From: Streptacidiphilus carbonis
Lineage (GTDB): Bacteria > Actinomycetota > Actinomycetes > Streptomycetales > Streptomycetaceae
Assembly: GCF_000787775.1 (NCBI RefSeq)
Contig: NZ_BBPM01000019.1
Location: forward strand, 1 to 64,000
DNA: 64,000 nt
Reading direction: 5' to 3'
Shown here: piece by piece, positions 869 to 30,790 of the stretch
Numbering within the stretch: position 1 is the stretch's first letter
Layout of the letters: every line of letters starts with the position of its first letter
Program-made: the position numbers and the translations under genes
Notes under the pieces: generated by a model
Seen by the model: the letters and a program-made list of their open reading frames with translations, nothing else
Database searches by the model: none
Told to the model about the DNA's origin: nothing

Positions 869-1027
869 AGCCACGCCTAGCGGTCCACCTCACCTACCAG
901 TGCAGTCTCGTTCGGGCTACTCCGCAATGACCGTTTCGATGACACTCCTGGCACACGAGTGTGCGCTGGCAGCCACGCGGCCATACTTGGTCGCTACAGC
1001 AGCTACACCGGAGGGAGCGCGGCGCCG

Positions 1028-4000: not shown

Positions 4001-5680
4001 GACCCGGCCGTCCTCAGCGTGCGGTCCGACCTGGACCGCGCTCTCGGCACTAGCAGCGGCACGGCGGCTGCCCCGCCGCAGGCCATCGCATCAAGACTTC
4101 AGTCGCCGGTCAGCCTGAATGCCGTCCAGGCGATGACGGACGACCAACTCGTCCAGGAGATGGGACAGTATGCGTCCGACCAGCCCACCTGGCTGCCCAC
4201 GGGCACATTGATCGGCGGAGCCTCCAGCTTCGCGGAGGTGATCACCACGGCGGCCCGGGAGGACCCGGGGCGCTTCACCGCGCTGCTTGAGCGAGAATCC
4301 GCCCTGCCGGCCATCCACGTCACCGCAGTAGTCCAAGGCATGGGCGCGAACTCCCCGACAGCGGCGGATGCCACCGTGTCCCAGATGCTGCGCACCGTGA
4401 AAGCTGCGGCCCTGCACGCCGACGCGCACAGTAACGCGCTGGCCCAGCTGATCGCGCGAACGGCACCGCATCTGACTGACGCGGATCTGGCCCAGGCCGC
4501 TTGCACCGTCGACGATCTCGTGACCATCCTGCGATCGCTCCTCAAGCCACCCGGACCGGATGCGCCCGTGCTCCTTAAGGAACTGCCCCCTGAGCCAGGC
4601 GCTGGTGAACAAGCAGTGCTCACGCTGATGGAACAAGGCCGTGACATGGTCACTGAGCTGCTCAATTGCGTCTGGCAACTGCGTGAGTGGGCTGCGCTGG
4701 ACGCTCTGCGGAGCCTTGCCGATCGCCGGGCGGAAGCAGTGGCGGCGCTCAAGGACGAACTCGTGCGCCTCGCAGCCGGTCCCGACCTCCTGCTTCGCAT
4801 GACGGCTCTGCAGACCGCGAGCATGGCCGGGGTCGTTAACCGTGACCTGCACATGAAGGTCGTAACAGATGCACTGGATGCTCCCGGGCTCACGACCCTG
4901 CCCGGCTCTAAGCTCCCTGCCGACGCCAGGATCCTGCTTGCGTGTCAGCCCCTCTTCGTTCTCCTCCTAGCCCTGGGGCGTGGCAATTACGACGCCGTCG
5001 ATCCGCTCGTCAACCGCATGCTGGACCTTGGCCGCTCTCTCGGGAAGGCACCCCACCGGGTGCTCACCGCTGTCGGACCGTGGGCCGCCCACAACGCAGC
5101 CGCAGTGACCACCTATGCCGCCGCCACTGGCACTGATCCCAAGGCGAACGCCGCCGTGGAACGGCTCGCTGCGGGAACAGCACCCGAGCGCCTGGGAGTG
5201 GCCGATGCTCTGTCAGATCTGCTACCCGTCACGTTGTACTCCCAGGCGCTGATGGAGGTGCTGCTGAAACTGTGCGACGACGACAATGACGACGTCGCCA
5301 AAAGCGCCGGCATGGCCGTGCGTGACGTCACCGCCGCAGATCACCCGAACGTCCAGACGCTGCTGTCGCGCATCCCCGGGACTCGAGCCTTCGAGCTCAA
5401 TCCCCAGCCCTTGGTCAACCTGGCGAAAATCTGCCAGCAAACTCACCCGGGCCTCGTTCTGGACATGGCTGAACGCTTCTTCGTGCTGCACGGGCAGAGA
5501 GCCGGTGACCTCTCTTCCGCCAGTGCCGCTCAGGCGTGGACCCTTGGGGAGATCGTCACCAACATCTACGCCAAGGACCCTCAGACTGCGACCGGACGCC
5601 AGGCACTGAACCTGATCGACACCATGGTCCTGGCCCGAAGCTACGGCCTTGAGGACCGGCTCGGCGATCTCGACCGCTAA
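1028..5680 (+). CDS. Avs-like STAND NTPase with nuclease-like N-terminus
   Basis: A 1550-residue protein. Residues 1-130 resemble a Cap4/DUF4297 or Mrr-type PD-(D/E)xK nuclease: GNRYEGRLAVLRLLELL, then E40, D45 and Q62-V-K64. Residues 282-289 (GAAGTGKS) form a Walker A motif and LLVLDQVDAF (354-363) a Walker B motif. The segments RVLLACRTFDF and LLRTPLHLRML match the NACHT/STAND pattern. The remaining thousand residues are Leu/Ala-rich helices, as in sensor domains. The order effector, STAND NTPase, helical sensor is that of Avs (AVAST) proteins, which recognise phage proteins and then cut DNA; this role is inferred. Start ATG 1028 is chosen because GGAGGG lies at 1010-1015; the frame is open to 959. 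The gene appears monocistronic. A defence or regulatory STAND protein of another family is possible. Confidence 0.75.
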   Translation: MPPKGGLPDKIGNRYEGRLAVLRLLELLDEEHDSVRMRFEHPGKDAFEWWVERDNGARVYTQVKRQLSTDDHWSVSKLVANGVLKAFGEQLRDDPAAECEFYSTLSASHLQELTESAVLAKDLQEFESVFAKAEDKKASWDKTCGVWTWWDPEESWQALKRIKAGVISERDLGSYLDVRARVLVSGVPRTVVSLLGSYLQDHLSQELTAEQVWQYLATQQMVPSDWRRDPSTRAKVNTANQRYTDGVRADRGPLAEIPRAEATRIARLLTSSEGPRIVTVTGAAGTGKSDVLGQVVEQLIAQSTVPDAPPLLVLAARLDRVGPFQDAAALGGQLGLPESPAVVLSRLADGGPALLVLDQVDAFSSASGRHPERSAAVTEAVGQAQAAGVRVLLACRTFDFNEDDRLLALSAPADAGLPFELGPLPVPEVDNVLDGAGVPPSSLTKTLRELLRTPLHLRMLVTLRQRNVLDLAGITTRLQLFNKFFDSVIEEVDRFRPNAPVEDVTGRLAEQLSRRQELNVPAALLSNDRLTVRHLISAGWLRSQAGRIGFAHEAFFDYAYAYHHMRAGLSLLDLLRSDEQYLFRRSQVRQILALEREEDRPQYLRDVRDVLTADDVRPHIKELVTAVVASVPDPTVEELQALMGLGDARSDSLAERAHALIASSPAFGGLLLTSGVVERYLADSDTADLGAWLCGMLVRNHPDLVAPLLQPHATDPAWADRIIRVINVAPLSKSEGTVALFESLIKAGGVDAARHDVFNLLYGTTGTSAPVGTRIARAYMQRRLELSGAEPLDLLGASQSAPDILATLANDAPTDFVHQVLPVVRAAGTATRTGEIADDGEQDTAFGARAQQHYAHGNHAVLSNLVRAVRTAAVAGDTATLAAVRDMAASRLAVEQVLAAAGFSSGHPGLLDEALTWLEQGQFALAQGWSLDPRGLSADVLAQVSEKLPPSATRKAQQRASSATSPVESQGMIPRGAGAQRLLRAIPAERLDPAVLSVRSDLDRALGTSSGTAAAPPQAIASRLQSPVSLNAVQAMTDDQLVQEMGQYASDQPTWLPTGTLIGGASSFAEVITTAAREDPGRFTALLERESALPAIHVTAVVQGMGANSPTAADATVSQMLRTVKAAALHADAHSNALAQLIARTAPHLTDADLAQAACTVDDLVTILRSLLKPPGPDAPVLLKELPPEPGAGEQAVLTLMEQGRDMVTELLNCVWQLREWAALDALRSLADRRAEAVAALKDELVRLAAGPDLLLRMTALQTASMAGVVNRDLHMKVVTDALDAPGLTTLPGSKLPADARILLACQPLFVLLLALGRGNYDAVDPLVNRMLDLGRSLGKAPHRVLTAVGPWAAHNAAAVTTYAAATGTDPKANAAVERLAAGTAPERLGVADALSDLLPVTLYSQALMEVLLKLCDDDNDDVAKSAGMAVRDVTAADHPNVQTLLSRIPGTRAFELNPQPLVNLAKICQQTHPGLVLDMAERFFVLHGQRAGDLSSASAAQAWTLGEIVTNIYAKDPQTATGRQALNLIDTMVLARSYGLEDRLGDLDR

Positions 5681-7872: not shown

Positions 7873-10620
7873 GTGAGTCGGTACATCCAGAATGGGTGGA
7901 TGATGCTGGAGATGCAGAATCAGGCGATTCTGGACTTGATCTACGGTCTGGTCTACCCGGAAGGGGCATGGCCGACCTATCGCACGGTGGACCTGCACAT
8001 GGACAAGTCCCTGGGCATCAGTGACACGCAGGCGGCCCTACTGTCCATTCCGGCGCAGCTGTTGCTGCAGCCGTGGCAGCGGGCTGGGTTCAATGACAGC
8101 GACGAGTTGCGTTTGACCCTGCGCGGGGTCGACGCCGCCGAAGGGGGCCGGCAGGACCTGGACGCTCTCGCGGCCTTCCTGGCCTGGACCTGCGAGCGTG
8201 AACAGGTGGCATCCGTCGATGCAGCGGACTTCGCGGTGACGGGTCGTGAGTACGCCGAAGCTCTTGGCCTGGACCTGGGCCCTTTGCCCGATCCGCAGGA
8301 CCCGCTGGCCCCAGCACCCGGGCCGGTGTCTGCGGATGCGAAGTCGGCGCGGGAGCTGATGACACGCATCCGCGTCCTGGGAATGCTCATGCACAGTTTC
8401 TGGCAGTCGGCGGGATATTCCCCCGCCGGCCCTTGGGACTGGACGTTCTTCATCGACCGGCGTCGACTGCGGCGCTATCGCGGAGCGCGAACCGGCGCCG
8501 ATCTCCTCGAGCTCGAGGATCAGTTCCAGGGCGACGCGACGCCCTCGCCCATTCAGCCGCCCACGGTGGAAGCCGAGAGCCTTGTAGACGTCTCCACTGC
8601 AGTGACGGACACGATGGGCAGTGAGGACGCGGTAGTGGTGCTCCATCGTCGTCCTCACGAGGCGATGATGGCCGTGCTGAGGGACGACATCATCGAGCTG
8701 TGTACCGTGGCGGTCAGTCAGAATCGCTACGACGATGCGATCTTCGAAGCGTTCCGGCACGTTGAGACCACGGTCCAGCGTCGCACCGGCCTCAACGACA
8801 CGATCGGCGGACTACTCCTCCAGCAGGCCTTCCGGGATGAGCCCTACAGGATTCGGGTCTCGGAGCGGAAGATGGACCAACAGCGGCTTCACGACATGTT
8901 CAGTGCCGCCATCGGCCTGCATCGCGGGGACCGTGCCCACAAGAACAAGCCCAATCTTGTGTGCCGCACCCTGCCAGAATGCGTTCGGATCCTCGCCCAC
9001 GCCTGTGTCCTGCTTGACCTCCTCGACCGAGACATGGCTGTCACTCCCGCCATCCGCGGCTATGCCCAGCATGACGATGACACCCTGACTCTGCGGGTGG
9101 TGCGTGCCACCCCCACGACCCGGGTCCTCATCGACGAACAGCCTTGTCGCGTGCTGCGGCGCACCGCTGAGACGATCACCGTGTCGACGGCCGGCATTCC
9201 AACAGACGAACACGATGTTGTGCTGATCGACGGTTCGCTTCAGAGCCCGAGTAAGCCGATCTGGCTGGTGCGCGGCGCGGGTAAGGAAAATTGGTACCGA
9301 GTGGAAGAGGTCGACATTCCGCTCTTCTCGGACCCGGAGTGCAGTCTTCCTCTGGATGCCACGGGGATCCGGCTTGCGACCAGGGAATCCGGGGTTCGTG
9401 GCCAACGCCTGGTGGCAACCAGGAACAGCTACACGCCCGGAGACTACGTCACCTGGCGTTGGGATACCAGCATCCACCTGCCTAAAGCCTGGGCCCGCGG
9501 GCGTAGCAACGAACCGCCGTTCGTCGCCTTCAACAGCTCGACACTCTTTAATGGCGATCCGAAGGCTGCGGCCCACCCGGCCCGCACGATGAAGGTGTCC
9601 CTGGAGCCGCCCCTCATCAAAGCCCGAGTTGGTGAGGCACCGCCGATTCGCGCACTGGTGTGGAAGACGGACGGAACAGCAACCTGGACGGAGGCGATCG
9701 ACAATCCGACGATTCGAACGGACGATGCGAAGACCGTCTCCTACGAAAGGCAGGGCCCGCGGGTCCTGGCACCGGGCCGATGTACGTTGCGTCTGGAGCA
9801 CGACTCGCAGTACGCCGAAGCCGTCGTGGAAGCTGTCGCGCATCCGCGAGGAACGGTCACGGACTGGGTCACTGCCCTTCCTCCGGTCAGCGATCTCGTG
9901 TTTACCAAGAACAAGGGTGTGCTCCTTGCGACCAGGGAAGCCACCGTCTGGCACATTGATGCCAAGACCGGAAAACTGGGGCCGGCGGCAGGCGCCCAAC
10001 TCCAGCCACCCATGTATGGCGGAGTAGACCGGCTGGCACCGGCCCCGAACGGGGACGTGGCCCTCCAGCTCTACGGTGAACCAGACCTGCTCGTCCTCAC
10101 AGGCAACTCGGATCTGAGCTGCAGCTACACCGTCACCAAGCCCGAACCCGAGAACACCATCACCGCGTTCGCCTGGCTCGGAACTGACCTGATCATCGCC
10201 ATGCACAGCCGGACCCTGTGGCGTTACACCCCCGATGGCCAGCACACCCTGCTCGGCCAGAGCCCCAACCCGATCAAGCGGCTGACGCCAGAGCCAAACA
10301 CCGGCAAGCTGCTCGCCCTCACTGGTCACGGGCAGGAGCAGCAGATCTGTCGCCTGGATCCGCGCTCCACGGACACGCCCGAGGATCTGCTCACCGAGCC
10401 GCAGAGGAGCAACACACTCGGGAGCCTCGCGGCTACACCCGACGGGGAGGTCTACGTGACGGACTTCTACGGGGGACGGCTCCTGAGACTCGACTCGGGC
10501 GTTCTCACCACGGTGGCCTCAGGCCTGAAGAATCCGGATGCGGTCTGCATCGACGACATTGGCACCGTGTACGTCGCGGATTTTGCCGATCATGCATCAG
10601 TCCGGCGCCTCCTTCCGTAG
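7873..10620 (+). CDS. TIGR02391 (Ymh) domain fused to a beta-propeller
   Basis: A 915-residue protein beginning at GTG, preceded by AGAGGG at good spacing; ATG 7903 is a possible later start. Residues 1-60 form a helical segment (LIYGLVYPEGAWPTY). Residues about 255-385 match the TIGR02391/Ymh family: a helix with EAFRHVETTVQRRTG, then MFSAAIGLHRGDRAHKNK, whose R351-x4-H356 fits the HEPN ribonuclease motif. Residues about 540-690 look beta-rich and Ig-like. Residues 690-915 resemble an NHL/SMP-30-type propeller (ATPDGEVYVTDFYGGRLLRLD). No signal peptide is present. HEPN-fold proteins often act as RNases in phage exclusion, so a defence role is possible but inferred. Confidence 0.65.
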   Translation: MSRYIQNGWMMLEMQNQAILDLIYGLVYPEGAWPTYRTVDLHMDKSLGISDTQAALLSIPAQLLLQPWQRAGFNDSDELRLTLRGVDAAEGGRQDLDALAAFLAWTCEREQVASVDAADFAVTGREYAEALGLDLGPLPDPQDPLAPAPGPVSADAKSARELMTRIRVLGMLMHSFWQSAGYSPAGPWDWTFFIDRRRLRRYRGARTGADLLELEDQFQGDATPSPIQPPTVEAESLVDVSTAVTDTMGSEDAVVVLHRRPHEAMMAVLRDDIIELCTVAVSQNRYDDAIFEAFRHVETTVQRRTGLNDTIGGLLLQQAFRDEPYRIRVSERKMDQQRLHDMFSAAIGLHRGDRAHKNKPNLVCRTLPECVRILAHACVLLDLLDRDMAVTPAIRGYAQHDDDTLTLRVVRATPTTRVLIDEQPCRVLRRTAETITVSTAGIPTDEHDVVLIDGSLQSPSKPIWLVRGAGKENWYRVEEVDIPLFSDPECSLPLDATGIRLATRESGVRGQRLVATRNSYTPGDYVTWRWDTSIHLPKAWARGRSNEPPFVAFNSSTLFNGDPKAAAHPARTMKVSLEPPLIKARVGEAPPIRALVWKTDGTATWTEAIDNPTIRTDDAKTVSYERQGPRVLAPGRCTLRLEHDSQYAEAVVEAVAHPRGTVTDWVTALPPVSDLVFTKNKGVLLATREATVWHIDAKTGKLGPAAGAQLQPPMYGGVDRLAPAPNGDVALQLYGEPDLLVLTGNSDLSCSYTVTKPEPENTITAFAWLGTDLIIAMHSRTLWRYTPDGQHTLLGQSPNPIKRLTPEPNTGKLLALTGHGQEQQICRLDPRSTDTPEDLLTEPQRSNTLGSLAATPDGEVYVTDFYGGRLLRLDSGVLTTVASGLKNPDAVCIDDIGTVYVADFADHASVRRLLP

Positions 10621-10844: not shown

Positions 10845-11189
10845 GCTTGCCTCACTTTGACGGACACCTGAGATCCGGGGCTTCGGGCCCAGAAGGATGA
10901 TGTCCATCATGGAGAGCATGGGGAAGAAGAAGCCGCGTCCTCGCCGCTCGTTCACGCCGGAGTTCAAGGCCGAGATCGTCGAGCTGTGTCGGCGCGGGGA
11001 TCGCTCGGTCGGCCAGGTGGCCAAGGACTTCGAGCTGACCGAGACCGCCGTGCGTGACTGGGTCAGGCTGGCCGAGGTCGACGCCGGCGAGCGGGAGGGC
11101 CTGACCAGCGGCGAACGCGAGGAGCTGGCCCGGCTGCGGCAGGAGAACCGGCGCCTTCGGGAGGACGTGGACATCCTCCGGCGTGCCAC

Positions 11190-12407
11190 GGTGAACTCAA
11201 CCGGTCAGCGCAACAGGGCTGTGAGCCTATCGGTTGGTGTGTCGTAGTCGAGGGTCTTCCTGGGCCGGGTGTTGAGGCGTTCGGCGATGCGGTCGAGGTC
11301 CTGTTGGGTGTGTCCGGCCATAGTGGTGCGCTTGGGGAAGTACTGGCGCAGGAGGCGGTTGGTGTTCTCATTGGTGCCTCGCTGCCAGGGGCTCTGGGGG
11401 TCGGCGAAGTAGACGGCCAGGCCGGTGGCCGCGGTGACGTCCTTGTGCGCGGCCAGCTCCATGCCGCGGTCCCAGGTCAGGGTCTTGCGCAGGTGGGCGG
11501 GCAGAGTCAGCATCGTGGCGGACACCCGTGCGGTGACGGTGGCGGTGTCGCGGCCGTCGAGCTGGACCAGCAGGGTGAAGCGGGTGGTGCGTTCCACGAG
11601 GGTAGCGATCTGGGTGACGCCACTGCCCATGACCAGGTCGCCTTCCCAGTGCCCGGGGACCAGGCGGTCGCGCACTTCGGCGGGCCGCTCGTGGATGGGA
11701 GTCGCTTCCTTGATCTGCGAGCGCCACTGGCCGGTGACGGTGTTGTGGATGTTGCGGCGGGTCGGACGTCCCGAACGCAGGTGCTGCTGCAAGGACTTGG
11801 CCAGCACTCCGCGCGCCTGCACGAACAGGGATTTGTAGATGGTCTCGTGGCTGATCCGCATCCCAGGGGCATCGGGATGCGCCTTCGTCAGATGGCCTGC
11901 TATCTGCTCAGGCGACCAGTCGTCGGCCAGGCGAGCGGCGACCACCTCCCGCAGGGGCTCGTTCAAGGCCAGCAGACAGGGCTTGGGGCGCCGGGCGCGT
12001 TGCCATGCCCGGTCCTCCGCGTCGACGGCCCGGTAGTGCTCAGCGCCCTTGTTGCAGCCGATTTCTCGGCTGACGGTGGAGGCGGCCCGTCCCAGGGACC
12101 GGGCGATCGCGCGCATCGAGTCCCCGCGGGCCAGGCCCCGGGAGATCAGCTCGCGTTCGCCCTCGGTCAGGAAACCGGGCCGACGCGTGCGGACCGGCGG
12201 GACGTAGCCGCCGTTCGACTTGAGGATCGTGAAGACCGAGCCGGGTGGCCACCCCAGGGCCCGGGAGATCTCACTGATCGACTCGCCGGCCTTCCAGCGG
12301 TCCCACAACTCACGCCTCTGCGCGTCCGACATCCCCGGACGACCCATCCTTGCCATACGCCACACCCTCTCCTACCTCGGGTGTTGCGCTGACCGGTTGA
12401 GTTCACC
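11190..12407 (-). mobile_element. Complete IS30-family insertion sequence
   Basis: The element is 1218 bp with perfect 25-bp terminal inverted repeats at 11190-11214 and 12383-12407 (outer ends GGTGAACTCAACC). It flanks itself with AC on both sides, a 2-bp duplication typical of IS30. Because the flank is symmetric, shorter repeats with a longer duplication (up to CCACGG) cannot be excluded. It carries one intact transposase gene and may still be active. Confidence 0.9.
11205..12365 (-). CDS. IS30-family transposase
   Basis: A 386-residue transposase. The N-terminus has two helix-turn-helix segments (SISEISRALGWPPGSV and SMRAIARSLGRAASTVSREI), the second being the hallmark IS30 DNA-binding motif. 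The catalytic DDE core is visible as GHWEGDL, TWDRGMEL and NENTNRLLRQYFPK. The stop codon lies inside the left terminal repeat and the start lies just inside the right one, as usual for this family. ATG 12347 (MGRPGMSDAQ) is an alternative start. No frameshift or missing catalytic residue was seen, so the enzyme should be functional. It cuts and joins the terminal repeats during transposition. Confidence 0.93.
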   Translation of the reverse strand: MWRMARMGRPGMSDAQRRELWDRWKAGESISEISRALGWPPGSVFTILKSNGGYVPPVRTRRPGFLTEGERELISRGLARGDSMRAIARSLGRAASTVSREIGCNKGAEHYRAVDAEDRAWQRARRPKPCLLALNEPLREVVAARLADDWSPEQIAGHLTKAHPDAPGMRISHETIYKSLFVQARGVLAKSLQQHLRSGRPTRRNIHNTVTGQWRSQIKEATPIHERPAEVRDRLVPGHWEGDLVMGSGVTQIATLVERTTRFTLLVQLDGRDTATVTARVSATMLTLPAHLRKTLTWDRGMELAAHKDVTAATGLAVYFADPQSPWQRGTNENTNRLLRQYFPKRTTMAGHTQQDLDRIAERLNTRPRKTLDYDTPTDRLTALLR

Positions 12408-12433
12408 ACGGCTTTCTTCGCGAAGGAGACCCG

Positions 12434-13305
12434 GTGACGGTGCACCCGTTCATCGAGACGGAGAAGCAGAGCGGCCACAACGTCAAGCGCGCTTGTGAAC
12501 TGCTGAAGGTCTCCCGTGCCGCCTTCTACGCCCGACGCACCGCCGCCCCCAGACCCCGTGCGGTGCGCGACGCTGACCTGACCGGGAAGATCGCCGAGGT
12601 CCACGGGACCTCGCGGGGCAGCTACGGGGCACCGCGCATCCATGCCGTGCTCCAGCGCGACGGCGAGCAGTGCGGACGCCGCCGGGTCGCACGGCTCATG
12701 CGCCAGGCCGGCCTCCAGGGCCGGCACCGCAGGCGGGGCCAGCGCACCACGGTCGCGGATCCGCGCGCCGGCGTGCGGCCGGACCTGGTCCTGCGGGACT
12801 TCCAGCCCGATCCGCAGGCCGTGGATACGCGCTGGTGCGGTGACATCACCTACATCCCGACCGCGGAGGGCTGGCTCTACCTGGCCACCGTCATCGACAT
12901 CGCCTCGCGGCGCGTCGTCGGCTGGGCAACCGCCGACCACCTTCGGACCACACTCGTCGCCGATGCCCTGCGGGTCGCCTGCCACAACCGTCGGCCCGAC
13001 GGCCCGGTGATCTTTCACTCGGATCGCGGCTGTCAGTACACTAGCCGAGAACTCGCTCTTCTTGCAGGCGAGTTGGGTGTCCGGCTGTCGGTCGGTCGGA
13101 CCGGCCAGTGCTGGACAACGCGCTCGCCGAGTCGTTCTTCGCGACGTTGAAGCGGGAGTTGTTCGAGGGCAGGCCCTTGTCGCCTCGGGCAAACACCCGC
13201 ACCGCGATCTTCGAGTGGATCGAAGGCTGGTACAACATACGCAGGCTGCACAGCAGCCTCGGATACCGCAGTCCCACCGAGTACGAGACCGCCCTGGCGG
13301 CCTGA
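12434..13305 (+). pseudogene. IS3 orfB transposase with a frameshift
   Basis: This is a DDE (rve) integrase-type transposase. The frame starting at GTG 12434 contains SRAAFYARR, GSYGAPRIH, DTRWCGDITYIP (first Asp) and FHSDRGCQYTS (second Asp). It fails at about 13110, where TGCTGG-ACAAC lacks one G compared with the expected QCWDNALAES. The rest, including the catalytic Glu in ALAESFFATLKREL and the C-terminal LHSSLGYRSP, continues in another frame to 13305. The loss is in a GGG run, so a sequencing error is possible, but the element is disabled anyway by the split orfA. Confidence 0.9.
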
Positions 13306-13450: not shown

Positions 13451-14197
13451 CTACACGGCGATCTCCACCGTAGCTCGGTCAATCCACCGGGCGAGAACAC
13501 TGAACGCGGACAACTGCTCGAGTGCCTCGTGCTCAGGGAGCTCCGGAAGACCATCTTCGTGGCTGTTCGGATTGCGGATCGCGGCATAGCATCCCTCCGC
13601 GAAGGCCATGACTCCGCGCTGCGTGCCCTTGTACGTGTCGCTGCCGTCGTCAGCGACGATCCGCAGCCGCGGATGGCCGACCAGCGGTGCATTGGTACTC
13701 AGCGCGTCTTGGAAGAGCTTCGTCTCTGAGGCGTCACGGCGGTTCAGCTTGTTCTGCGTTTCAGCGTTGACCTTCCTTGCGGCTGCGGTGACGGCCTCGC
13801 GGAAGTGGCCGCTCTGCCAGAGCGAACGCGCTCCTTCCCATGCCCAAGGATGAAGGGCTGCTGCGGTCATGTGCGGGGCACTGTCACCCAGCTTCTCGCG
13901 GATCTCCTCCTGGGAGGCCAGAACCGCCTTGGCCCGAAGTGCCTGTGTTCGGTGGCTCACCCACTGGCGATTGGCTAGGTTCATGGTCATCTCGAGGGCG
14001 TCCCGCCAGCCCGGGATGAGCCGGTCGAAGATCGGTTCCACAAGGACGAATTGGACGACGATCTCATCACTGCTGCCCCGATGGTGCCGCCCACCCCTGT
14101 CGGGGGAGGTGACGAGATCAGTGAGGGAGATGAACTTGTCGAGCTGTTGGTCGGCCCATTCGGGGGCGGCAATAGTTGTCACCTGTTCACCATGCAT
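13451..14197 (-). CDS. TIGR02391 (Ymh) family protein
   Basis: A 248-residue soluble protein. The C-terminal half matches the TIGR02391/Ymh family: LHPWAWEGARSLWQSGHFREAV (115-136), then KLFQDALSTNAP and GCYAAIRNPNSHED. R208-N-x3-H213 is the HEPN-type RNxxxH motif. The N-terminal 100 residues are unassigned. The protein is clearly paralogous to the one encoded at 15463-16167, sharing LHPW.WE.ARSLW and AIRNP..HE. It is the last gene of a minus-strand trio, 198 bases after its upstream neighbour. An RNase or abortive-infection role is an inference from the fold. The start ATG 14197 has no strong ribosome binding site, so a downstream start is possible. Confidence 0.75.
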   Translation of the reverse strand: MHGEQVTTIAAPEWADQQLDKFISLTDLVTSPDRGGRHHRGSSDEIVVQFVLVEPIFDRLIPGWRDALEMTMNLANRQWVSHRTQALRAKAVLASQEEIREKLGDSAPHMTAAALHPWAWEGARSLWQSGHFREAVTAAARKVNAETQNKLNRRDASETKLFQDALSTNAPLVGHPRLRIVADDGSDTYKGTQRGVMAFAEGCYAAIRNPNSHEDGLPELPEHEALEQLSAFSVLARWIDRATVEIAV

Positions 14198-15462: not shown

Positions 15463-16167
15463 CTACCTCGATACGGTGCTTGTGTCGATGAGGCGGGCGA
15501 GGACGCTGAGTGCGGCGAGCTGCTCCAGTGCCTCCTGCTCGTCCCATTCGCCGGTTTCGTGTGCGGCGGGGTTGCGGATGGCGAAGAAGACTCCGAGGCC
15601 CAGCTGCAGGGCACCGCGCTGTCGGCTCTGGGTGGTGGGGTTGTCCGGATCTCCGGGGACGCGCAGTCGCGGCTTGCCGGGCTCGGGCGCCCGGTCGCTG
15701 AACGTCTCCTGGACGAGTTTGTCGTCTGCAACGTCGAGGCGGCCCAGCTTGTCCTGAAGGTTGGCATTGATCGCGCTGGCCCCGCGGTGGACGGCCGCGC
15801 GGTAGTGCTTGGACTCCCACAGGCTGCGGGCCGCCTCCCAGATCCACGGGTGGAGTCGGTCCGCGGGCATGCGCGGGGCATCGGGCGCGAGTCGGATACT
15901 CCACTCGTCCTGATCGTCGAGGATCCCCAGGCCCCGCTGCACCTTCCCGGATGCCTCCGATGTCCCCGCCATGCCCTCCAGGTGGAAGTCGGAGAGCTCG
16001 GGGTCCAGCACCTTGAGGATCTGCTTGACCGTCGGCTCCAGTCGCCGCAGCTCGCGGAGGATCCCGGGGGCCCCTCCCTCGTAGCGGTTCGCCCGGTCGC
16101 TCCTGTCGTAGTCGGTGCACAGGGATTCGTAGGCTGTCAGGCGCTGGCGCATCCAATCACGGTCCAT
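15463..16167 (-). CDS. TIGR02391 (Ymh) family protein, second paralogue
   Basis: A 234-residue protein with the same C-terminal domain as its neighbour. The visible motifs are LHPWIWEAARSLWESKHYRAAV (105-126), KLVQETFSDRAP and GVFFAIRNPAAHETG. R198-N-x3-H203 fits the HEPN motif. The N-terminal 100 residues differ from the first paralogue, so the family keeps one conserved domain with variable partners. It is the first gene of the minus-strand trio and is transcribed divergently from the ImmA/IrrE gene at 16453. A role in phage exclusion or RNA cleavage is inferred, not shown. Confidence 0.75.
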   Translation of the reverse strand: MDRDWMRQRLTAYESLCTDYDRSDRANRYEGGAPGILRELRRLEPTVKQILKVLDPELSDFHLEGMAGTSEASGKVQRGLGILDDQDEWSIRLAPDAPRMPADRLHPWIWEAARSLWESKHYRAAVHRGASAINANLQDKLGRLDVADDKLVQETFSDRAPEPGKPRLRVPGDPDNPTTQSRQRGALQLGLGVFFAIRNPAAHETGEWDEQEALEQLAALSVLARLIDTSTVSR

Positions 16168-16402: not shown

Positions 16403-16414
16403 CGGAATATTCCG
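16403..16414. promoter_or_regulatory. 12-bp palindrome upstream of the XRE-ImmA gene
   Basis: CGGAATATTCCG is a perfect palindrome in an AT-rich patch 39 bases before the GTG of the XRE-protease gene. TAGCAT (16418-16423) just downstream could be a -10 element. It is a plausible operator for the HTH domain encoded by that gene, as in other ImmA-linked repressors. This is inference from position and symmetry only. Confidence 0.5.
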
Positions 16415-16452
16415 TGCTAGCATTTTGAGGACTGATGAGGGGAGGGCGCGTC

Positions 16453-17571
16453 GTGGACGACATGCAAGCTCATGCAGGGATGTTGATGTTGGCTCGGGAC
16501 TCCCGTGCCCTGACGCAGGCTGAGGTCGCTGCGGCGATGACCAAGGCGTCGCCGGGCGGGGAGACCCCGGTGTCCCAGGGCTACGTCAGCAAGGCCGAGA
16601 AGGGGCAGTTGAGCGTTACCGGGCAGCGTCTGGAGCTGTATGCCCGTGCGCTCGGGTACCCGGCCAGGCTCCTGTGTGTGGATCCGCAGGTGCACGGAGT
16701 CGGTGTAGGACTGGTCCACCACCGCAAGCGCGCCTCGCTGGCGGCTGGCGCGCTGCGGCGCATCCACGCCCAACTCGCCTTCACCCGGCTGCAGTTGGCG
16801 GGTATGCAGGAGGCCGCCGGGATTGTGGACCGACCCGTCCAGGTTCCCCGGATCGTGCTGGACCGGTGGACGACCGCGAAGGACACCGCACGCGATGTCC
16901 GCGCCGCCTGGTCGATGCCGAGGGGACCGGTGGTCGACATGGTCGCCACGGTCGAGGAGGCGGGCGCCCTGGTGGTCCTGGCCGACCTGGACACCGACCT
17001 GCTGGACGCGGTCAGCCAGTGGCCCGAGGGCCGCAGTCCGCTGTTCCTCCTCAACGACCGGGCGCCCGGGGACCGGTGCCGTTTCAGCCTGGCCCACGAG
17101 CTCGGCCACCTGGTCCTGCACCACGAGCCCGGCGCCAGCGGCGAGCAGGAGAAGCAGGCGGACGCGTTCGCGGCCGAGTTCCTCATGCCGGCCAACGACA
17201 TCCGCGACTCCTTCGCCACCCCCCTGACCCTGGCCCGCCTGGCCCAGCTCAAGCGCACCTGGCGGGTCTCTATGGCCGCGCTCCTGCGCCGGGCCCAGCA
17301 ACTGGGCGCCGTCAGCGAGTGGCAGCACCGCTCGCTGACCATCGAGATGTCCGCGCTCGGCTACCGCACCGCGGAACCCGTCCAGACCCCGCGCGAACGG
17401 CCCGCGCGCGTGCCCGCCATGGTGCGGGCCCTGCTGTCCGAGGCCCGCGTCCCGCTACCGGACGCCGCTGACAGCGCCTACCTGCTGCCCGAGGACTTCG
17501 AGCGCCTGTACGTCACAGGCACCGCCGCGTTATCCCCGTCCCCTGAACCCGCCCCGAAGGTGAGGCCATGA
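16453..17571 (+). CDS. XRE-family HTH fused to an ImmA/IrrE metallopeptidase
   Basis: The protein has 372 residues from GTG 16453, chosen because GGGGAGGG ends eight bases upstream; ATG 16435 and 16462 are alternatives. Residues 5-65 form an XRE helix-turn-helix (LTQAEVAAAMTKAS, VSQGYVSKAEKGQLSV). The central part holds the zinc-protease motif H215-E-L-G-H219 with the downstream helix KQADAFAAEFLMP, which is the ImmA/IrrE signature. Such proteins sense a signal and cut or displace a repressor, controlling mobile elements or stress genes. Its stop overlaps the ATG of the next gene (ATGA), so the two are translated together. The TGT-like partner suggests that both belong to one system. Confidence 0.88.
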   Translation: MDDMQAHAGMLMLARDSRALTQAEVAAAMTKASPGGETPVSQGYVSKAEKGQLSVTGQRLELYARALGYPARLLCVDPQVHGVGVGLVHHRKRASLAAGALRRIHAQLAFTRLQLAGMQEAAGIVDRPVQVPRIVLDRWTTAKDTARDVRAAWSMPRGPVVDMVATVEEAGALVVLADLDTDLLDAVSQWPEGRSPLFLLNDRAPGDRCRFSLAHELGHLVLHHEPGASGEQEKQADAFAAEFLMPANDIRDSFATPLTLARLAQLKRTWRVSMAALLRRAQQLGAVSEWQHRSLTIEMSALGYRTAEPVQTPRERPARVPAMVRALLSEARVPLPDAADSAYLLPEDFERLYVTGTAALSPSPEPAPKVRP

Positions 17572-18731
17572 CCGACGCCCTGCCCCCGTCCGGCGCGCTG
17601 CCCGGCACCGACATCGCCGTCGGCCTGCCGCAGCCCCGGTCCGACACGCGCATAGCCCCCCTGGCCGGCCGCATGCTGCTCCAGGTCAATCCCCGCAAGG
17701 TGGGCGCGGTGCGCGAGCAGTTGGACGAGGGCCGCTCCGGACTGGTGCTGTGCGGCAAGGATGCCGTCAAAACGGCCGCAGTCCTGCGCCGCGCCAGGTC
17801 GTTCACCGGGGTGCTGATGGTGGACCCCGCCGTCTACCAGAACCTCGTCGCCACCGAGGAGGACCCCTTCCCGCGGCTTGATGACGGCAAGCTGCCGATG
17901 GGAGACCCGCTTGCCCTCTCGGTCTCCGAACAGCTGGAGGCCGGGACCACCGCGGCTGTCACTCCCACCGGTTACATCCGCGCCGAGGACTCCGGAGCGC
18001 TGAAGGCCGCGGTCAAGCGGGTCGCCGCACTGGAGGACCCGAACCTGGTCTTCGCGGCCCCGATCGACGTGATGTGGCTGGCCGACGAGTCCCTGGACCA
18101 GCTGATCGCCTGGTTGAGCAAGGTCCCCGGGCCCAAGGCCGTGATGCTCGGCGGCCAGAAGGACCCGCTTGCCCGCGGCAGGGGCACCGTGGCCAACCTG
18201 TGCCGCCTGCTGTCCGAGGTCCCCGGGACCGCTCTCCTGCGCACCGACCTGGCCGCGCTGGGCGCGCTGGCGCACGGGGCGGCCTTCACGGCCTTCGGCC
18301 ACAGCAGTGCCGCGCGCCACCTCGTCCCGCCCGGCGAGATCGCGCAGAGCAGCCCGGGGTTCGCCAAGTCCCCGCATGTACTCCACCCCCAGCTGATGGA
18401 CTTCTTTCTCGGCTCCACCCTCGCCGACCGCTACGCGGCCGGCGGAGCCCCGGCCTGCGGGTGCAATTCCTGCAACGGGCGCCCGTTGGACGCGTATGCG
18501 ACCAACAAGAACCCGCGGATCGGATGGGCCGCCGCCCACAACGTCGCCATCCTGATGGAATGGCTGCGTACCCTGACCGCGGTCCAGCCTGGAAAACAGC
18601 GGCAGGACTGGTGGCGCGAGCGCTGCCGGACCGCCGTCGCCCAGTACCCGCTCGTCAACGCCACGCTCAACCAGCGCAAGGGCTTCGAGGTCCCCGCACA
18701 GCTCAAGCGGTGGGCTGCCGACCCCCAGTAG
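17568..18731 (+). CDS. tRNA-guanine-transglycosylase-like protein
   Basis: A 387-residue protein without an obvious family name. The C-terminal part has C297-x-C299-x2-C302 followed by H324 in AAAHNVAILMEWL. This strongly resembles the zinc site of tRNA-guanine transglycosylases (CxCxxC...HN), including the helix after the histidine. The preceding sequence alternates strands and helices like a TIM barrel (GLVLCGKDAVKTAAVL, TGVLMVD, NLVFAAPIDVMWLADE). DpdA, a TGT relative, inserts 7-deazaguanine into DNA, so base exchange in DNA or RNA is a possible activity. The TGT substrate loop with its catalytic Asp was not identified. It is translationally coupled to the ImmA/IrrE gene. Confidence 0.6.
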   Translation: MTDALPPSGALPGTDIAVGLPQPRSDTRIAPLAGRMLLQVNPRKVGAVREQLDEGRSGLVLCGKDAVKTAAVLRRARSFTGVLMVDPAVYQNLVATEEDPFPRLDDGKLPMGDPLALSVSEQLEAGTTAAVTPTGYIRAEDSGALKAAVKRVAALEDPNLVFAAPIDVMWLADESLDQLIAWLSKVPGPKAVMLGGQKDPLARGRGTVANLCRLLSEVPGTALLRTDLAALGALAHGAAFTAFGHSSAARHLVPPGEIAQSSPGFAKSPHVLHPQLMDFFLGSTLADRYAAGGAPACGCNSCNGRPLDAYATNKNPRIGWAAAHNVAILMEWLRTLTAVQPGKQRQDWWRERCRTAVAQYPLVNATLNQRKGFEVPAQLKRWAADPQ

Positions 18732-18760: not shown

Positions 18761-19375
18761 TCAGGTCAGGCGCGGGTACAGCTCTTCGACGAAGCGCCAT
18801 GCCGCCGAGGTATGGCGCTCGGGCCGGTACACACGAGGCTCCAGCAGCAAGTCCATCTGCTCGCCTGTGCCCGCCAGTACACCCACGCCGTAGAAGGACG
18901 CCTCCGTCAGCGCCTCGTCCAGCCGCGCAGGCCTGCGGTCCAGGAGCATCGCGCGCGCGCAGAACGGCGCGAACCGCCCGGCCAGATCCAGCCCGCTGCG
19001 CCAACCCGTCGCACGGACCACCGCCAACTCCAGTCGCAACGGACGCACGGCCTGCCGCACCACTGAGCGGCTCTCCAGCGTGACAGCCCCCGCGGGCAGC
19101 GCCCGCACCGCAGCGCGCTCGTACCGGTCCAACGAGGCCAACTGCACCGGCAGGCCGACCGGCAGGGTCAACAGCGTGTCCAGCGCGTCCCGGTCGTCGA
19201 GCGAGGCAGCCGACGAGCGCGTACGGCGCTCGTGCTCGGGTTCGTCCACCCGGTAGAACAACAAGGTGTCCAGGCCCATGACTTGGACGCAGCGGGCCCG
19301 GCAGCCGGCGGGTAGCAGCGAACTGGACGCCTGCCGTACCGAGCTGCCCACCGCAGGGCTCGCCAAGGTCACCAT
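18761..19375 (-). CDS. Hypothetical protein paired with a winged-helix regulator
   Basis: A 204-residue protein rich in Arg, Leu and Ala, with no signal peptide or membrane span. The segments LPVGLPVQLASLDRYERAA, LRLELAVVRATGWRSGLD and FYGVGVLAGTGEQMDLLLEP appear protein-like, but I recognise no family. It lies 48 bases downstream of the winged-helix gene on the same strand and is probably co-transcribed with it. It converges on the TGT-like gene, with stops 30 bases apart. It could belong to the same functional island. The exact start is uncertain because the first 30 residues are Ala/Ser-rich. Confidence 0.55.
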   Translation of the reverse strand: MVTLASPAVGSSVRQASSSLLPAGCRARCVQVMGLDTLLFYRVDEPEHERRTRSSAASLDDRDALDTLLTLPVGLPVQLASLDRYERAAVRALPAGAVTLESRSVVRQAVRPLRLELAVVRATGWRSGLDLAGRFAPFCARAMLLDRRPARLDEALTEASFYGVGVLAGTGEQMDLLLEPRVYRPERHTSAAWRFVEELYPRLT

Positions 19376-19423: not shown

Positions 19424-19753
19424 CTATCCAACTCTTGTCACCGCAACCGCATCCGGCAAACGCTCCAACAGGCCCCGGAACAGCCGCCACAGCTCCGCGT
19501 CGCCGGCACGCCGGTACCACTGCCGCCTCTCCCCGGCGGGTCGAGGCAGCCGCTCGGCCAGGCCCGCGGCGATCAGAGCCCGCATCGGGGCCTGATAGGC
19601 GCTCGCAGGAGCGCCCAGCTCAAGCGCGAGATCACCCAGGCAGACGCCGGACTCCGGTGCACGGGCCAGCGCCAGCAGCACCTCGGCGCGGTAGCGGTTG
19701 CCGAGCAGGAGTGCCGAGAAGTCTCTCGTCCACTGCGGATGGTTCGAAGACAC
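19424..19753 (-). CDS. Winged-helix transcriptional regulator (ArsR/MarR-like)
   Basis: A 109-residue DNA-binding protein. The segment RYRAEVLLALARAPESGVCLGDLALELGAPASAYQAPMRALIAAGLAERL reads as a winged helix with the recognition helix around residues 45-62. No metal-binding cysteines are present. The GTG start is fixed because TGA lies in frame two codons upstream. The start lies inside a large AT-rich palindrome, so the message is probably leaderless or repressed at its very start. It heads a two-gene minus-strand operon with the hypothetical protein downstream. Autoregulation is a reasonable inference. Confidence 0.75.
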   Translation of the reverse strand: MSSNHPQWTRDFSALLLGNRYRAEVLLALARAPESGVCLGDLALELGAPASAYQAPMRALIAAGLAERLPRPAGERRQWYRRAGDAELWRLFRGLLERLPDAVAVTRVG

Positions 19754-25559: not shown

Positions 25560-25880
25560 ATGAGCAGGTATGCAGCGGCGAAGCCGTACACGGTGCCCCT
25601 GTCGCTCGATGAACTGGGCGGGCCGACGGAGGGGGTCATCCGGCTGCCTCGGCACATTGACTGGGGGCCGGACTACGGTTACGAGCTGACCGACGAAGCC
25701 GACCTCGCGGTGATGTACGAGCGGGTGATCCGTGAAGCCCAGACGGTGGAAGACCTGGCCGGCTTCCTGGACGCAGCCACGCTGCGACGTCTGTGGGCGA
25801 GCCTGATCATCCCCGCGCCGGCGAGGGTGTTGTGGGAGGGTCGCTTTCCGGAACTGGCCCGACGAGCGGCTGCGGCGTAG
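25560..25880 (+). CDS. Hypothetical protein coupled to an AbiEii-type gene
   Basis: A 106-residue acidic protein (MSRYAAAKPYTVPLSLDELGG ... PELARRAAAA). It is helical, has no membrane span, and belongs to no family I can name. Its stop TAG overlaps the GTG of the nucleotidyltransferase gene (TAGTG), so the two are translationally coupled. By position it could be the cognate antitoxin or a partner subunit, but it lacks the winged helix of classical AbiEi antitoxins. The frame is open upstream to 25383; ATG 25560 is chosen because the protein character begins there. Confidence 0.6.
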   Translation: MSRYAAAKPYTVPLSLDELGGPTEGVIRLPRHIDWGPDYGYELTDEADLAVMYERVIREAQTVEDLAGFLDAATLRRLWASLIIPAPARVLWEGRFPELARRAAAA

Positions 25881-26528
25881 TGGAAGAGCTGCACCATCGC
25901 CTGATCAGGATCGGGCTGGACGCGCTGGCGGACGACTTCGGCTACGCCTTGGCCGGTGGGTACGCCATCCAGGCCCATCACGTCGTTCAACGCCTCAGCG
26001 ACGACGTGGACCTGTTCACTCCGATCGATCGTCGCAGCGAGATGCCAGCGGCAACGGACCGAAATCGTGGGGGCGTACGAGCAAGCGGGCTTTCGCGTCG
26101 AGCGGGGTCACTGCTCGGATACGTACGTCCGCCTCCAGGTCACCGATCTCGGCACGGGTGCAACCTCCAAGGTCGAACTTGTCGCGGAGTTCCTCGAGTA
26201 CGAGCCTGTTCCATCAGAGTTGGGTCCTGTGCTGCATCGGGACGACGTGGCTGCAGGGAAGATGGAAGCCTTGTTCACCCGTGCAGAGGCTCGTGACTTC
26301 ATCGACGTGGATGCCCTGCTGGGCGTGGGCTACACCCGCCAGCAGCTGATCCAGCTCGCCGCCCAACGGGACGCGGGGTTCGACCTCGCCGTACTTGCCG
26401 ACATGTTCGGCAGTGTGGGGCGCTTCAATGATCGTCAGTTCACTGCCTATGGAGTGGATGCCGAGCGGGTGTGCGCGATCAGAGCTCAGTTCGCGGACTG
26501 GCGAGAGGAACTCAGGCGACTCGGATAG
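25880..26528 (+). pseudogene. AbiEii/AbiGii-type nucleotidyltransferase, frameshifted
   Basis: The GTG at 25880 opens a frame with LAGGYAIQAHHVVQRLSDDVDLFTP, the GG...DxD active site of AbiEii-type toxins and DUF1814 nucleotidyltransferases. At about 26055 the frame shifts: CGAAATCG carries one extra A compared with the expected DRIVGAYEQAGF. The rest (KVELVAEFLEYEP, KMEALFTRAEARDFIDVDAL, typical of the family) continues in another frame to 26528. Joined, it would encode about 215 residues. Such toxins transfer nucleotides to tRNA or other targets and are held in check by a partner. The indel lies in an A run and may be an error. Confidence 0.8.
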
Positions 26529-27319: not shown

Positions 27320-27598
27320 GACATACCCCCTCCATGTAGGACCGCCCCGTGCGGCCGCTGCCCTGTTGTAGCACGGCCCTGAATTGCGGTCATTTCATGA
27401 AGCGGTGCCTCCTATTCCGCCGCTATCGCGCGACCAGGCGACTTCCACCGCCTTGCGGCCAAGACCAGCGCAATTCCGTTCGTCAGCAGTCCGCCCCCTG
27501 GCGTGAAAATTTCACAGCGCATTGCCAACAGCGCACAGGGCGCTGTTGAATCAGCGGCCAGGGCGCACGGGACCGCCCATGGTACGAGGAGAGAGGAC
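27320..27598. other. Divergent promoter region of the lanthipeptide locus
   Basis: This gap separates the precursor (leftward) from lanB (rightward). A possible -10 element for the precursor is TACAAC (minus strand, near 27366-27371). The frame of lanB is open to 27503, but ATG 27599 has the ribosome binding site. No inverted repeat suitable as an operator was found. Confidence 0.4.
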
Positions 27599-30500
27599 AT
27601 GACTGTGGGTCTTATCTTCCAGGCCGCACAAGTCGCGCTCGTACGCACACCGCTGCTGCCCTCCGCGGCTGCGCAGGCCACCCGGGTCGACCTCTCACCC
27701 GGAGTGAGCGGCTACCCGCAGCGGCTCGCGGAGTACCTGTGCCGACTGGCGCGCGATCCTCTGCTGCGCGAGGCAGTGGAGGTCTCAAGTTCCTCACTCA
27801 TGAACACCGTGTACCGAGTCGAGCGCGGCGATGAAGTCGCCGAGGCCAAGCTCGAACGCGCGGTGTTCGCCCTGACCCGCTACCTGCTGCGCATGTCCGG
27901 TCGCCCGACGCCGTTCGGCCTGTTCGCCGGGGTGGCACAAGCCGGCTTCGGCGATCGCACCGTGGTACGTCTTGGCAGCGACCATCGCAAGGCCGTCAGG
28001 GTCGACACCGATTGGATCGCGACTCTGGTCAGCACGTGGGAGCAGGACGACGTCGTGCTCCCACAACTGCAGGTGGTGCACAATGATTTGTGCTTCATGC
28101 GCGGCGACCGTCTCGTGCTGCCGTATGTGCGCGGCGACGCGACTGCTGCGGCCGCGCAGCGTACTGCGCCGGCGTCCGGCACAGCGACGCTGATGCGTGA
28201 GCTCAATGTCCGGGCAACTCCCTTGGTCTGCGCCGCGCTCGCACGCACCGCCGAGCCGATCGGCTTTGGCGCACTCCTCCGGGCTCTGCGCAGCGATTTC
28301 CCCCAGGCGCCGGACACAGCGATCTCAGGCATGCTGCGCGACTTGATCCGCCGGGAGATCTTGCTGACCGAACTGCGTCCGGCCCAGTGGAGCGACGACC
28401 CGCTGCAGCATGTGCGCGACAGGCTTCCGGCCGGTGACGGCCGCAGTCGGCTCGACGAGGTCGCCCGGTTACTCGCGGACTATGCTTCCCAGCTGCCGGG
28501 CGAGGGTATCCGCGCCTGGCGGTCGGCACTCGGCACGATGCGCGACCTCGCGCCCAGTGAGCGCCCGCCGATCCAGGTCGATGTCGCGCTTGACGCGCAG
28601 ATCCAGCTGAACGCCGCGGTCGCCGGAGAGGTGGAACGCGCCGCGACGGCTCTGTGGCGCATGGCCCCGCCGCGCAACGGCCCGGCGCACCTGCGCGAGT
28701 ATCTCGACGCTTTTATCGAGAAGTACGGCATCGGGAGGTACGTCCCCCTCGTCGACGTCCTCGACGAGCATCGCGGTCTTGGGCCGCCGGCCGGATACCA
28801 ACTTCCCAGCGGGGGGCGTCGGCTCGACACCGCGACCCAGAAGCAGGACGGCGAAGGCGCACGCGAACGCTTGCTCGCCGAGTTGGCGCTGGCCTCGCTG
28901 AGCCACGATGCCGGCGATGCCGAAGTGGTGCTCGACAACGCGCTGCTCGACCGCTTGGCGCAGTCGGCCGAGGCGCCGCCCGTGGCCGGGTCCGAGTTGT
29001 GTGTGCAGCTGTTCGCACCGAGTGCGGCGGCGCTGGACGCGGGAGACTTCCAACTGGCCGTTGCGCCAGGCGGCGGCTCGTTCCGGCCCGGTGCCATGCT
29101 CGGACGCTTCGCGCGGCTGATCGGAGCCGAGGACTCCTTGCGTGCGGTCAATGATGCGGCGTACCGGCCCGATGGCGACGACACACGTGACCCCCTCCTC
29201 GCTCAGCTGTTCTTCCAGGCGCGGCTCGACCGAGCGGCGAACGTGGCCCAAGTGCCCGCCGTGCTTCCGCACGCGATCACGGTCGGGATGTACGCGGGTC
29301 CGCCCGGAGCGACCGTCATCGACCTCGCCGACCTCGCGGTGGTGGCGGATCGCGAGCGACTCTCTGTTGTGTCCATGCAGCTCGGCCGCGAAGTGGTTCC
29401 GCTCATGCCACACGTTCTCGCGGTCGACCGGGCGGCCCCGAACGCGGCGCGCTTTCTGAGCGAGGTGGCCAACAGCGGCTTCCGGCATTGGGCCGTGTGG
29501 TCGTGGGGTTCCTTGGAGGTGTTGCCGCGACTCCCTCGGGTGCGCTACGGCCGCACGATCCTCGCTCCCGCGCGCTGGCGGCCCGACACTGTGATCGCTG
29601 CGGCTGCGTCGGACGCCGGCACTGACTGGGGACGGGACCTGGTGGCATGGCGCGAGCGATGGCGTGTGCCGGACCGGATCCAGGTGATGCTGGGCGACCA
29701 TCGGGTTGATCTCGACCTGCGAGTGCCGCTGCACCAGCAGCTGCTCCGTCACGAACTGCGCCGGCATCCGGACATGCTCGTGCTGGAGTCGCCCGGCGGC
29801 CGACTGTCGCCCACCGGCTGGTTGTCCGGGCACGCCAACGAGATCGTCGTGCCCCTGGTGGCACGCGAGCAGCCGCGGCGTCCACGGATACCCGTCCGGT
29901 CGGCGGCATCGACCGCACGCGCACGCATGGTGCATCCGAGGTATCAGGTAGGCGGTGAATGGCTGTACGCGAAGGCGTATGCAAGCCCTGAGCTGCAGGA
30001 CGCCTTACTGGCACGGCAGGTGGCGCAGTTGGTCCGAGCGCTGCCCGAGGACGTGGACCGGTGGTTCTTCATCCGGTACCGCGATCCCCGACCGCACCTG
30101 CGGCTGCGGTTTCACGGCGACCCGGAGGCGTTGGCCACGCGCCTGGTGCCATTGCTGCACCAGTGGGCGCAGACGTGCATCGACGCCGGGTCGATCAGCG
30201 AGCTCCTCCTCGCGGCGTACGAGCCCGAAGTACACCGCTACGGCGGCGCGGAGGCGCTGACCGCGGCGGAGGAGCTCTTCCACGCCGATAGTGAGGCGGT
30301 ACTCGCGCAGTTGCGGCTCCCCAAGCCGGTCGCTGCGGCGGTGCCCGCCCACATGATGGCGGCCGCGAACCACAGCGCGCTGCTGGACGGACTGGGTGTG
30401 GCGGATTGGCCGCGCTGGGTGCGCGACGCCTATCCGATGAAGCATCACGACGTATTCCGGCAGGAGCGGGGACTCGCGCTGCGCCTGGTGGATCCGGCGG

Positions 30501-30790
30501 ACCCCGGGGCGGCGTTGCTGGCACTGCCAGGCGCACAAGGAGTGGCGGACACCTGGTTCCGGCGGCAGAAGGCCGCGATCCGCTATGGCGAGGTGCTGCG
30601 CGCTCAAGGCGGAGAGGCGCTGGTTCTGGATTGCGCGGGCAGCGTGCTGCACATGCATGCGAACCGGCTGCTGGGCGTGGACCGGGAGGCGGAGGAACGC
30701 TCGTACGCCCTGCTCCATGGAGCCGCGCGCGCCTTCCTCGGGCGCACCGCCGCCGCCGCTGCCGGTGCCGGTGCCGGTGCCCTCGGATGA
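27599..30790 (+). CDS. lanB: Lanthipeptide dehydratase LanB, full length
   Basis: A 1063-residue class I dehydratase. It uses glutamyl-tRNA to activate Ser/Thr of the precursor and then eliminates glutamate to give Dha/Dhb. The glutamylation domain covers about residues 30-750, with the conserved RPTPFGLFAGV at about 100-111. The elimination (SpaB_C) domain covers about residues 785-1045, starting WLYAKAYASPELQD and including WFFIRYRDPRPHLRLRFHG. Both halves are present in one chain, as in LanB and unlike split thiopeptide enzymes. ATG 27599 is chosen because GGAGAG precedes it by about seven bases. The end overlaps lanC by ATGA. The C-terminus is an Ala/Gly tail. Confidence 0.93.
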   Translation: MTVGLIFQAAQVALVRTPLLPSAAAQATRVDLSPGVSGYPQRLAEYLCRLARDPLLREAVEVSSSSLMNTVYRVERGDEVAEAKLERAVFALTRYLLRMSGRPTPFGLFAGVAQAGFGDRTVVRLGSDHRKAVRVDTDWIATLVSTWEQDDVVLPQLQVVHNDLCFMRGDRLVLPYVRGDATAAAAQRTAPASGTATLMRELNVRATPLVCAALARTAEPIGFGALLRALRSDFPQAPDTAISGMLRDLIRREILLTELRPAQWSDDPLQHVRDRLPAGDGRSRLDEVARLLADYASQLPGEGIRAWRSALGTMRDLAPSERPPIQVDVALDAQIQLNAAVAGEVERAATALWRMAPPRNGPAHLREYLDAFIEKYGIGRYVPLVDVLDEHRGLGPPAGYQLPSGGRRLDTATQKQDGEGARERLLAELALASLSHDAGDAEVVLDNALLDRLAQSAEAPPVAGSELCVQLFAPSAAALDAGDFQLAVAPGGGSFRPGAMLGRFARLIGAEDSLRAVNDAAYRPDGDDTRDPLLAQLFFQARLDRAANVAQVPAVLPHAITVGMYAGPPGATVIDLADLAVVADRERLSVVSMQLGREVVPLMPHVLAVDRAAPNAARFLSEVANSGFRHWAVWSWGSLEVLPRLPRVRYGRTILAPARWRPDTVIAAAASDAGTDWGRDLVAWRERWRVPDRIQVMLGDHRVDLDLRVPLHQQLLRHELRRHPDMLVLESPGGRLSPTGWLSGHANEIVVPLVAREQPRRPRIPVRSAASTARARMVHPRYQVGGEWLYAKAYASPELQDALLARQVAQLVRALPEDVDRWFFIRYRDPRPHLRLRFHGDPEALATRLVPLLHQWAQTCIDAGSISELLLAAYEPEVHRYGGAEALTAAEELFHADSEAVLAQLRLPKPVAAAVPAHMMAAANHSALLDGLGVADWPRWVRDAYPMKHHDVFRQERGLALRLVDPADPGAALLALPGAQGVADTWFRRQKAAIRYGEVLRAQGGEALVLDCAGSVLHMHANRLLGVDREAEERSYALLHGAARAFLGRTAAAAAGAGAGALG

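Follow-up and report, generated by a model that had tools for sequence, protein, structure and literature searches.

The TGT (tRNA-guanine transglycosylase) fold has already been co-opted for immunity: DpdA modifies DNA, and Cap10 binds a deazaguanine tag. DpdA works together with dpdB/C and a supply of preQ0, and a further TGT has been proposed for the BREX-related capture systems (PMC12839542); Cap10, from type IV CBASS, belongs to the TGT family and has been reshaped so that it binds a partner carrying a deazaguanine tag (PMC11996544). In RosmerTA the antitoxin, RmrA, is an XRE-ImmA protein, and the toxins of these systems vary widely (PMC10440598). The protein family described here is a new variant beside DpdA, the BREX-related capture TGT and Cap10, and shares with the first two a setting in restriction or defence islands. 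The reading to which we incline, at a little short of even confidence, is that it supplies the effector, of TGT fold with the zinc kept and the nucleophile gone, of an autoregulated, RosmerTA-like toxin-antitoxin module on a mobile island.

The window, i.e., the whole stretch of DNA analysed, is 64,000 nucleotides from Streptacidiphilus carbonis, and the features of the module within it are collected in Table 1. The initial annotation had placed here an XRE-ImmA/IrrE protease gene with a second gene translationally coupled to it, and both points hold. Pfam finds HTH_3 (E 1.7e-5) and Peptidase_M78 (E 2.6e-19) in g1, the HELGH motif is intact, and the ATG of g2 (17568; end 18731) overlaps the stop codon of g1 (ATGA, 17568-17571). 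The preferred start of g1 is the GTG at 16453, with GGGGAGGG ahead of it; a longer alternative is the ATG at 16435. PADLOC's RmrA model covers 344 residues (E 1.2e-58) and, having both the XRE and the ImmA parts of a RosmerTA antitoxin, g1 is RmrA by sequence. The g1-g2 layout is RosmerTA-like in the overlap of an XRE-ImmA antitoxin gene with its partner gene, the defence-island setting and the RmrA match, but the partner here is a TGT-fold protein outside PADLOC's collection, the module has in addition a conserved convergent gene, g3, and g2 often occurs without RmrA.

Table 1. Features of the g2 module in the window
Feature	Positions	Strand	Basis
Perfect palindrome CGGAATATTCCG, candidate g1 operator	16403..16414		GGAATATT core recurs before g1
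g1, XRE-HTH + ImmA/IrrE (M78) zinc protease, RmrA-type regulator/antitoxin	16453..17571	+	Pfam, PADLOC RmrA, HELGH
g2, predicted TGT-fold protein, CxCxxC...HN zinc site, without TGT nucleophile	17568..18731	+	AF2, Foldseek, conservation
g3, convergent partner, 204 aa, family and fold unmatched	18761..19375	-	tail-to-tail adjacency, AF2
g4, small winged-helix (MarR/ArsR-like) gene upstream of g3	19424..19753	-	weak MarR_2 match (Pfam)

What kind of protein is g2? Models from four libraries (Pfam, NCBIfam, PADLOC and PHROGs) give no match to it, and sequence searches against the PDB gave chance matches only. The suggestion that it is TGT-like, with a TGT-type CxCxxC...HN zinc pattern, is nevertheless upheld by structure prediction and conservation. 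In the AF2 model (pLDDT 87.8, pTM 0.86) eight barrel strands (35-40, 57-62, 82-86, 129-131, 160-167, 190-195, 221-226 and 240-244) are followed by a cysteine cluster and then a long helix with H324, which is TGT topology, the zinc subdomain lying between strand 8 and helix 8. When the model was compared with the PDB by Foldseek, TGTs took ranks 1-6 over the full length of g2 (~380 columns, TM ~0.55), and Cap10 of type IV CBASS (9ntn) came at rank 36. The motif, C297-x-C299-x2-C302-x21-H324-N325, arose in 18 of 200,000 shuffles of g2; true actinobacterial TGTs have it as CxCxxC-x25-HN, with a slightly longer spacer. Its four ligands are invariant in all of 23 aligned homologues (28-58% identity) and again in 55 of 55 members of the extended family, where N325 is kept in 46. 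Of the proposed checks, profile comparison with TGTs was the part that gave little, hhalign of the g2 family against actinobacterial TGTs returning a probability of 15.6% (P 0.0017), and the assignment of the fold therefore depends on the structural model, in which the TIM barrel and the CxCxxC...H cluster did appear. Taken together, model and conservation show that g2, as predicted, has the TGT fold and keeps its zinc subdomain intact.

The numbering of the TGT active site used here (D102, D156, D280) is that of the Zymomonas mobilis enzyme. D280, in the sequence MFD, is the nucleophile, D156 serves base recognition and D102 lies in the TDSGGFQ motif. Matched to these manually, by strand order and local HMM alignment rather than superposed coordinates, the inferred equivalents in g2 are A242 for D280 (in strand 8), T134 for D156 (by counting without gaps from Q122, a glutamine common to both) and D86 for D102. 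Among 55 family members position 242 is A in 35, G in 18 and S in 2, and positions 241 and 243 never carry an acid; position 134 is T in 54; and position 86 is D in 53 and E in 2. Near-invariant too are R225 (55), D227 (54), R250 (55) and H251 (52), and in the model D86, R225, D227 and R250 are nearly invariant residues of the barrel mouth. So, set beside bacterial TGTs (PF01702), g2 shares the full-length barrel, the zinc subdomain and motif and the aligned D102, but has its nucleophile and base-recognition aspartates replaced, and the Pfam model matches none of 23 family members. By curated model or aligned catalytic residues g2 is not a TGT; it may bind a ligand or carry out a different chemistry.

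A pocket that has lost its nucleophile while it and the zinc site stay conserved brings Cap10 to mind. Might g2 be non-catalytic and, in a signalling complex with g3 (and g1), bind a modified base, a nucleotide or a modified protein terminus? Cap10 is itself a TGT-family member remodelled for immunity by base binding in place of classical tRNA exchange, and it is among the Foldseek matches. However, TGTs outscore it in that search, g2 being structurally closer to TGT itself, and among the scanned neighbours there is neither a CD-NTase nor a QueC-like Cap9 gene. QueC was not found in the genome either, the sole match over the cut-off of its model being rejected as a GMP synthase gene. A Cap10-like reader or scaffold of this kind is rather unlikely.

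How closely are the neighbouring genes tied to g2? A scan of genome contigs with the single g2 sequence found nothing, and an alignment-based scan found 42 named loci, Streptosporangium, Nocardiopsis, Gordonia and Microlunatus included. In the same family as the host, 28 of 395 genomes have relatives, patchily distributed; more distant actinobacteria also carry them, and the plasmid, phage and viral contig collections searched do not. All 14 copies of g1 with at least 49% identity in the 395 genomes adjoin g2 (a count that takes in the window's own, both copies in genome G102 and a frameshifted copy in G076), and among the matches listed there no g1 relative at or below 40% identity lies beside g2. 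g1 is dedicated to g2. The two G102 copies of the module (L006/L029) are identical and lie ~30 kb from each end of the linear chromosome; the G076 module (L057) is at the very end of a contig, with both g1 and g2 frameshifted.

The palindrome upstream of g1 occurs once in the 8.46-Mb genome. Its core, the GGAATATT element, precedes g1 in 32 of 36 g1-bearing loci, and not one of 26 g1-less loci has it close to g2; the four loci outside the 32 comprise a one-base variant (L035), one cut by a contig end (L057), and two without the element (L099 and L101). The simplest explanation is that it is a candidate operator, to be bound by g1. The element might also be read as a sigma-R -35 element, but in the window's clade no GTT follows it at the customary distance, and where it lies with respect to -10-like sequences differs from clade to clade; for these reasons a candidate operator is preferred. 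From the g1-g2 linkage and the operator-like element we infer protease control of g2. The tree requires g1 to have been gained or lost at least 3-4 times, and g1 is present in 32 of 54 distinct g2 loci, so that, if g2 is toxic, g1 is not its sole antidote, about 40% (22 of 54) being without it.

That the conserved unit exceeds g1-g2 is plain: to the pair are added g3, the operator-like element and often g4. In 50 of 54 distinct full-length loci, the most divergent lineages included, g3 abuts g2 tail-to-tail. Its AF2 model is confident (pLDDT 91.7) and a fold search of the PDB found no match for it, UvrC-like hits at TM ~0.17 being dismissed as noise. g4 precedes g3 in the window and in several Streptomyces, Streptosporangium, Gordonia and Microlunatus loci. 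With g3 so much more constant than g1, and g1 so often gained or lost, the real unit might be the two genes g2 and g3, effector with immunity protein or co-effector, to which g1 was recruited as regulator in some lineages. This we think unlikely: the deep lineages Gordonia and Microlunatus carry g1, g2, g3 and g4, four loci (L050, L052, L098 and L103) retain g2 without g3, and Streptomyces plasmids hold g3 relatives without g2. Three of those four loci are in BREX-2 islands; in L052 PADLOC places g2 between the BREX-2 PglX and PglY/PglZ genes, and L098 and L103 have the same arrangement as judged by gene length and sequence start. One plasmid relative of g3 (L176:4845-5462, NZ_CP108729.1) shares an operon, from which g2 is missing, with genes for a DNA methyltransferase, DUF4326 and phage Gp37/Gp68, and g3 could act more broadly in defence or in modifying nucleic acids.

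The initial annotation also proposed that g2 is an active, protease-controlled enzyme of base exchange on DNA or tRNA in the manner of DpdA, and this proposal is not supported. The fold, the zinc site and the alignment of D86 with the TDSGGFQ aspartate are what it has in its favour, but a Thr stands for D156 nearly throughout and none of the 55 family members has an acid at the aligned D280 position. The genome, furthermore, yields no PF01702 match above cut-off, while 14 of 14 control genomes do, and the check for queuosine or deazapurine synthesis genes thus found neither TGT nor QueC. No Pfam match to dpd genes came from the window genes scanned, and the preQ0 supply and dpdB/C partners that accompany DpdA were not found for g2. 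With both aspartates replaced and the genome lacking TGT and QueC, canonical deazapurine exchange, i.e., classical base exchange by g2, is unlikely, and the proposal as a whole is highly improbable.

The neighbours bear on a possible defence role. Defence-type surroundings, claimed for the window, find support in its relatives: near g1-less g2 lie BREX-2 PglX/PglY/PglZ (L052), a PDC-S37 DUF4011 helicase (L036), Vsr (L040), a NACHT ATPase (L045) and HEC-05 (L096), and these genes support a possible role for g2 in defence. That g2 instead serves nucleotide metabolism or chromosome-arm biology, as an enzyme or as a regulator, and merely sits in islands is scarcely probable, for although some g1-less loci have ordinary metabolic neighbours only, the linkage to RmrA, BREX-2, PDC-S37, Vsr, NACHT and HEC-05 genes recurs and the distribution is patchy. 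Since g2 keeps fold and zinc site, has lost the catalytic acid and recurs next to anti-viral genes in other actinobacteria, it has probably been turned from its ancestral use into a base-binding protein of bacterial immunity and is not a DNA base-exchanger.

How, then, would the toxin-antitoxin module favoured here operate? The XRE half of g1 would repress the g1-g2 operon via GGAATATT, as their co-occurrence suggests, and the ImmA half would sense or execute, by proteolysis, a trigger, for example DNA damage or infection by phage. If ImmA, IrrE and RmrA biology is a guide, that proteolysis would release or derepress g2, which may then bind or act on a nucleobase or nucleic acid through its remodelled pocket (D86, T132-P-T134, R225, D227 and R250). 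Without the TGT nucleophile such a pocket points to a reader of bases or nucleic acid, as with Cap10, or to a different reaction, and the outcome would be a block to growth or to phage. g3, in most lineages an obligate partner, could be immunity protein or co-effector. Against this module count the loci without g1 (22 of 54) or g3 (four), the hhalign probability of 15.6% and the TM of ~0.55.

The family would add another, independent instance of TGT-fold immunity, linked to a protease-repressor and devoid of the canonical nucleophile. With no entry in the four libraries searched, it extends over several actinobacterial families, and brings a candidate operator and a dedicated partner whose fold is unrecognised. 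It is possible, but held tentatively and well below even confidence, that g2 is an immune effector of TGT fold whose chemistry or ligand is new, with the zinc site kept, the nucleophile lost and a new conserved Asp/Arg pocket, under the control of an ImmA protease-repressor and accompanied by that partner. The four genes g1-g4 are a defined unit suited to phage-challenge and structural tests.

The rest of the window has its own points of interest. Just upstream of the module are a DUF6414 gene and three genes with Hypoth_Ymh domains (7873-10620, 13451-14197 and 15463-16167), two of them with weak similarity to PADLOC's Aga_HEPN/PD-Lambda-3_B. Beside the Ymh genes are insertion-sequence remains (10897-13150), by sequence reading an IS30-like transposase inside an IS3-like element. 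A protein of 1573 aa (959-5680) has weak STAND NTPase similarity and is possibly a further defence gene. An AbiEii-type nucleotidyltransferase gene (25793-26528) is apparently split between frames, with Pfam AbiEii at E 4e-7 on its 3' part. At 27503-30790 lies a lantibiotic dehydratase (LanB) gene, which probably marks the start of a lanthipeptide or thiopeptide cluster.
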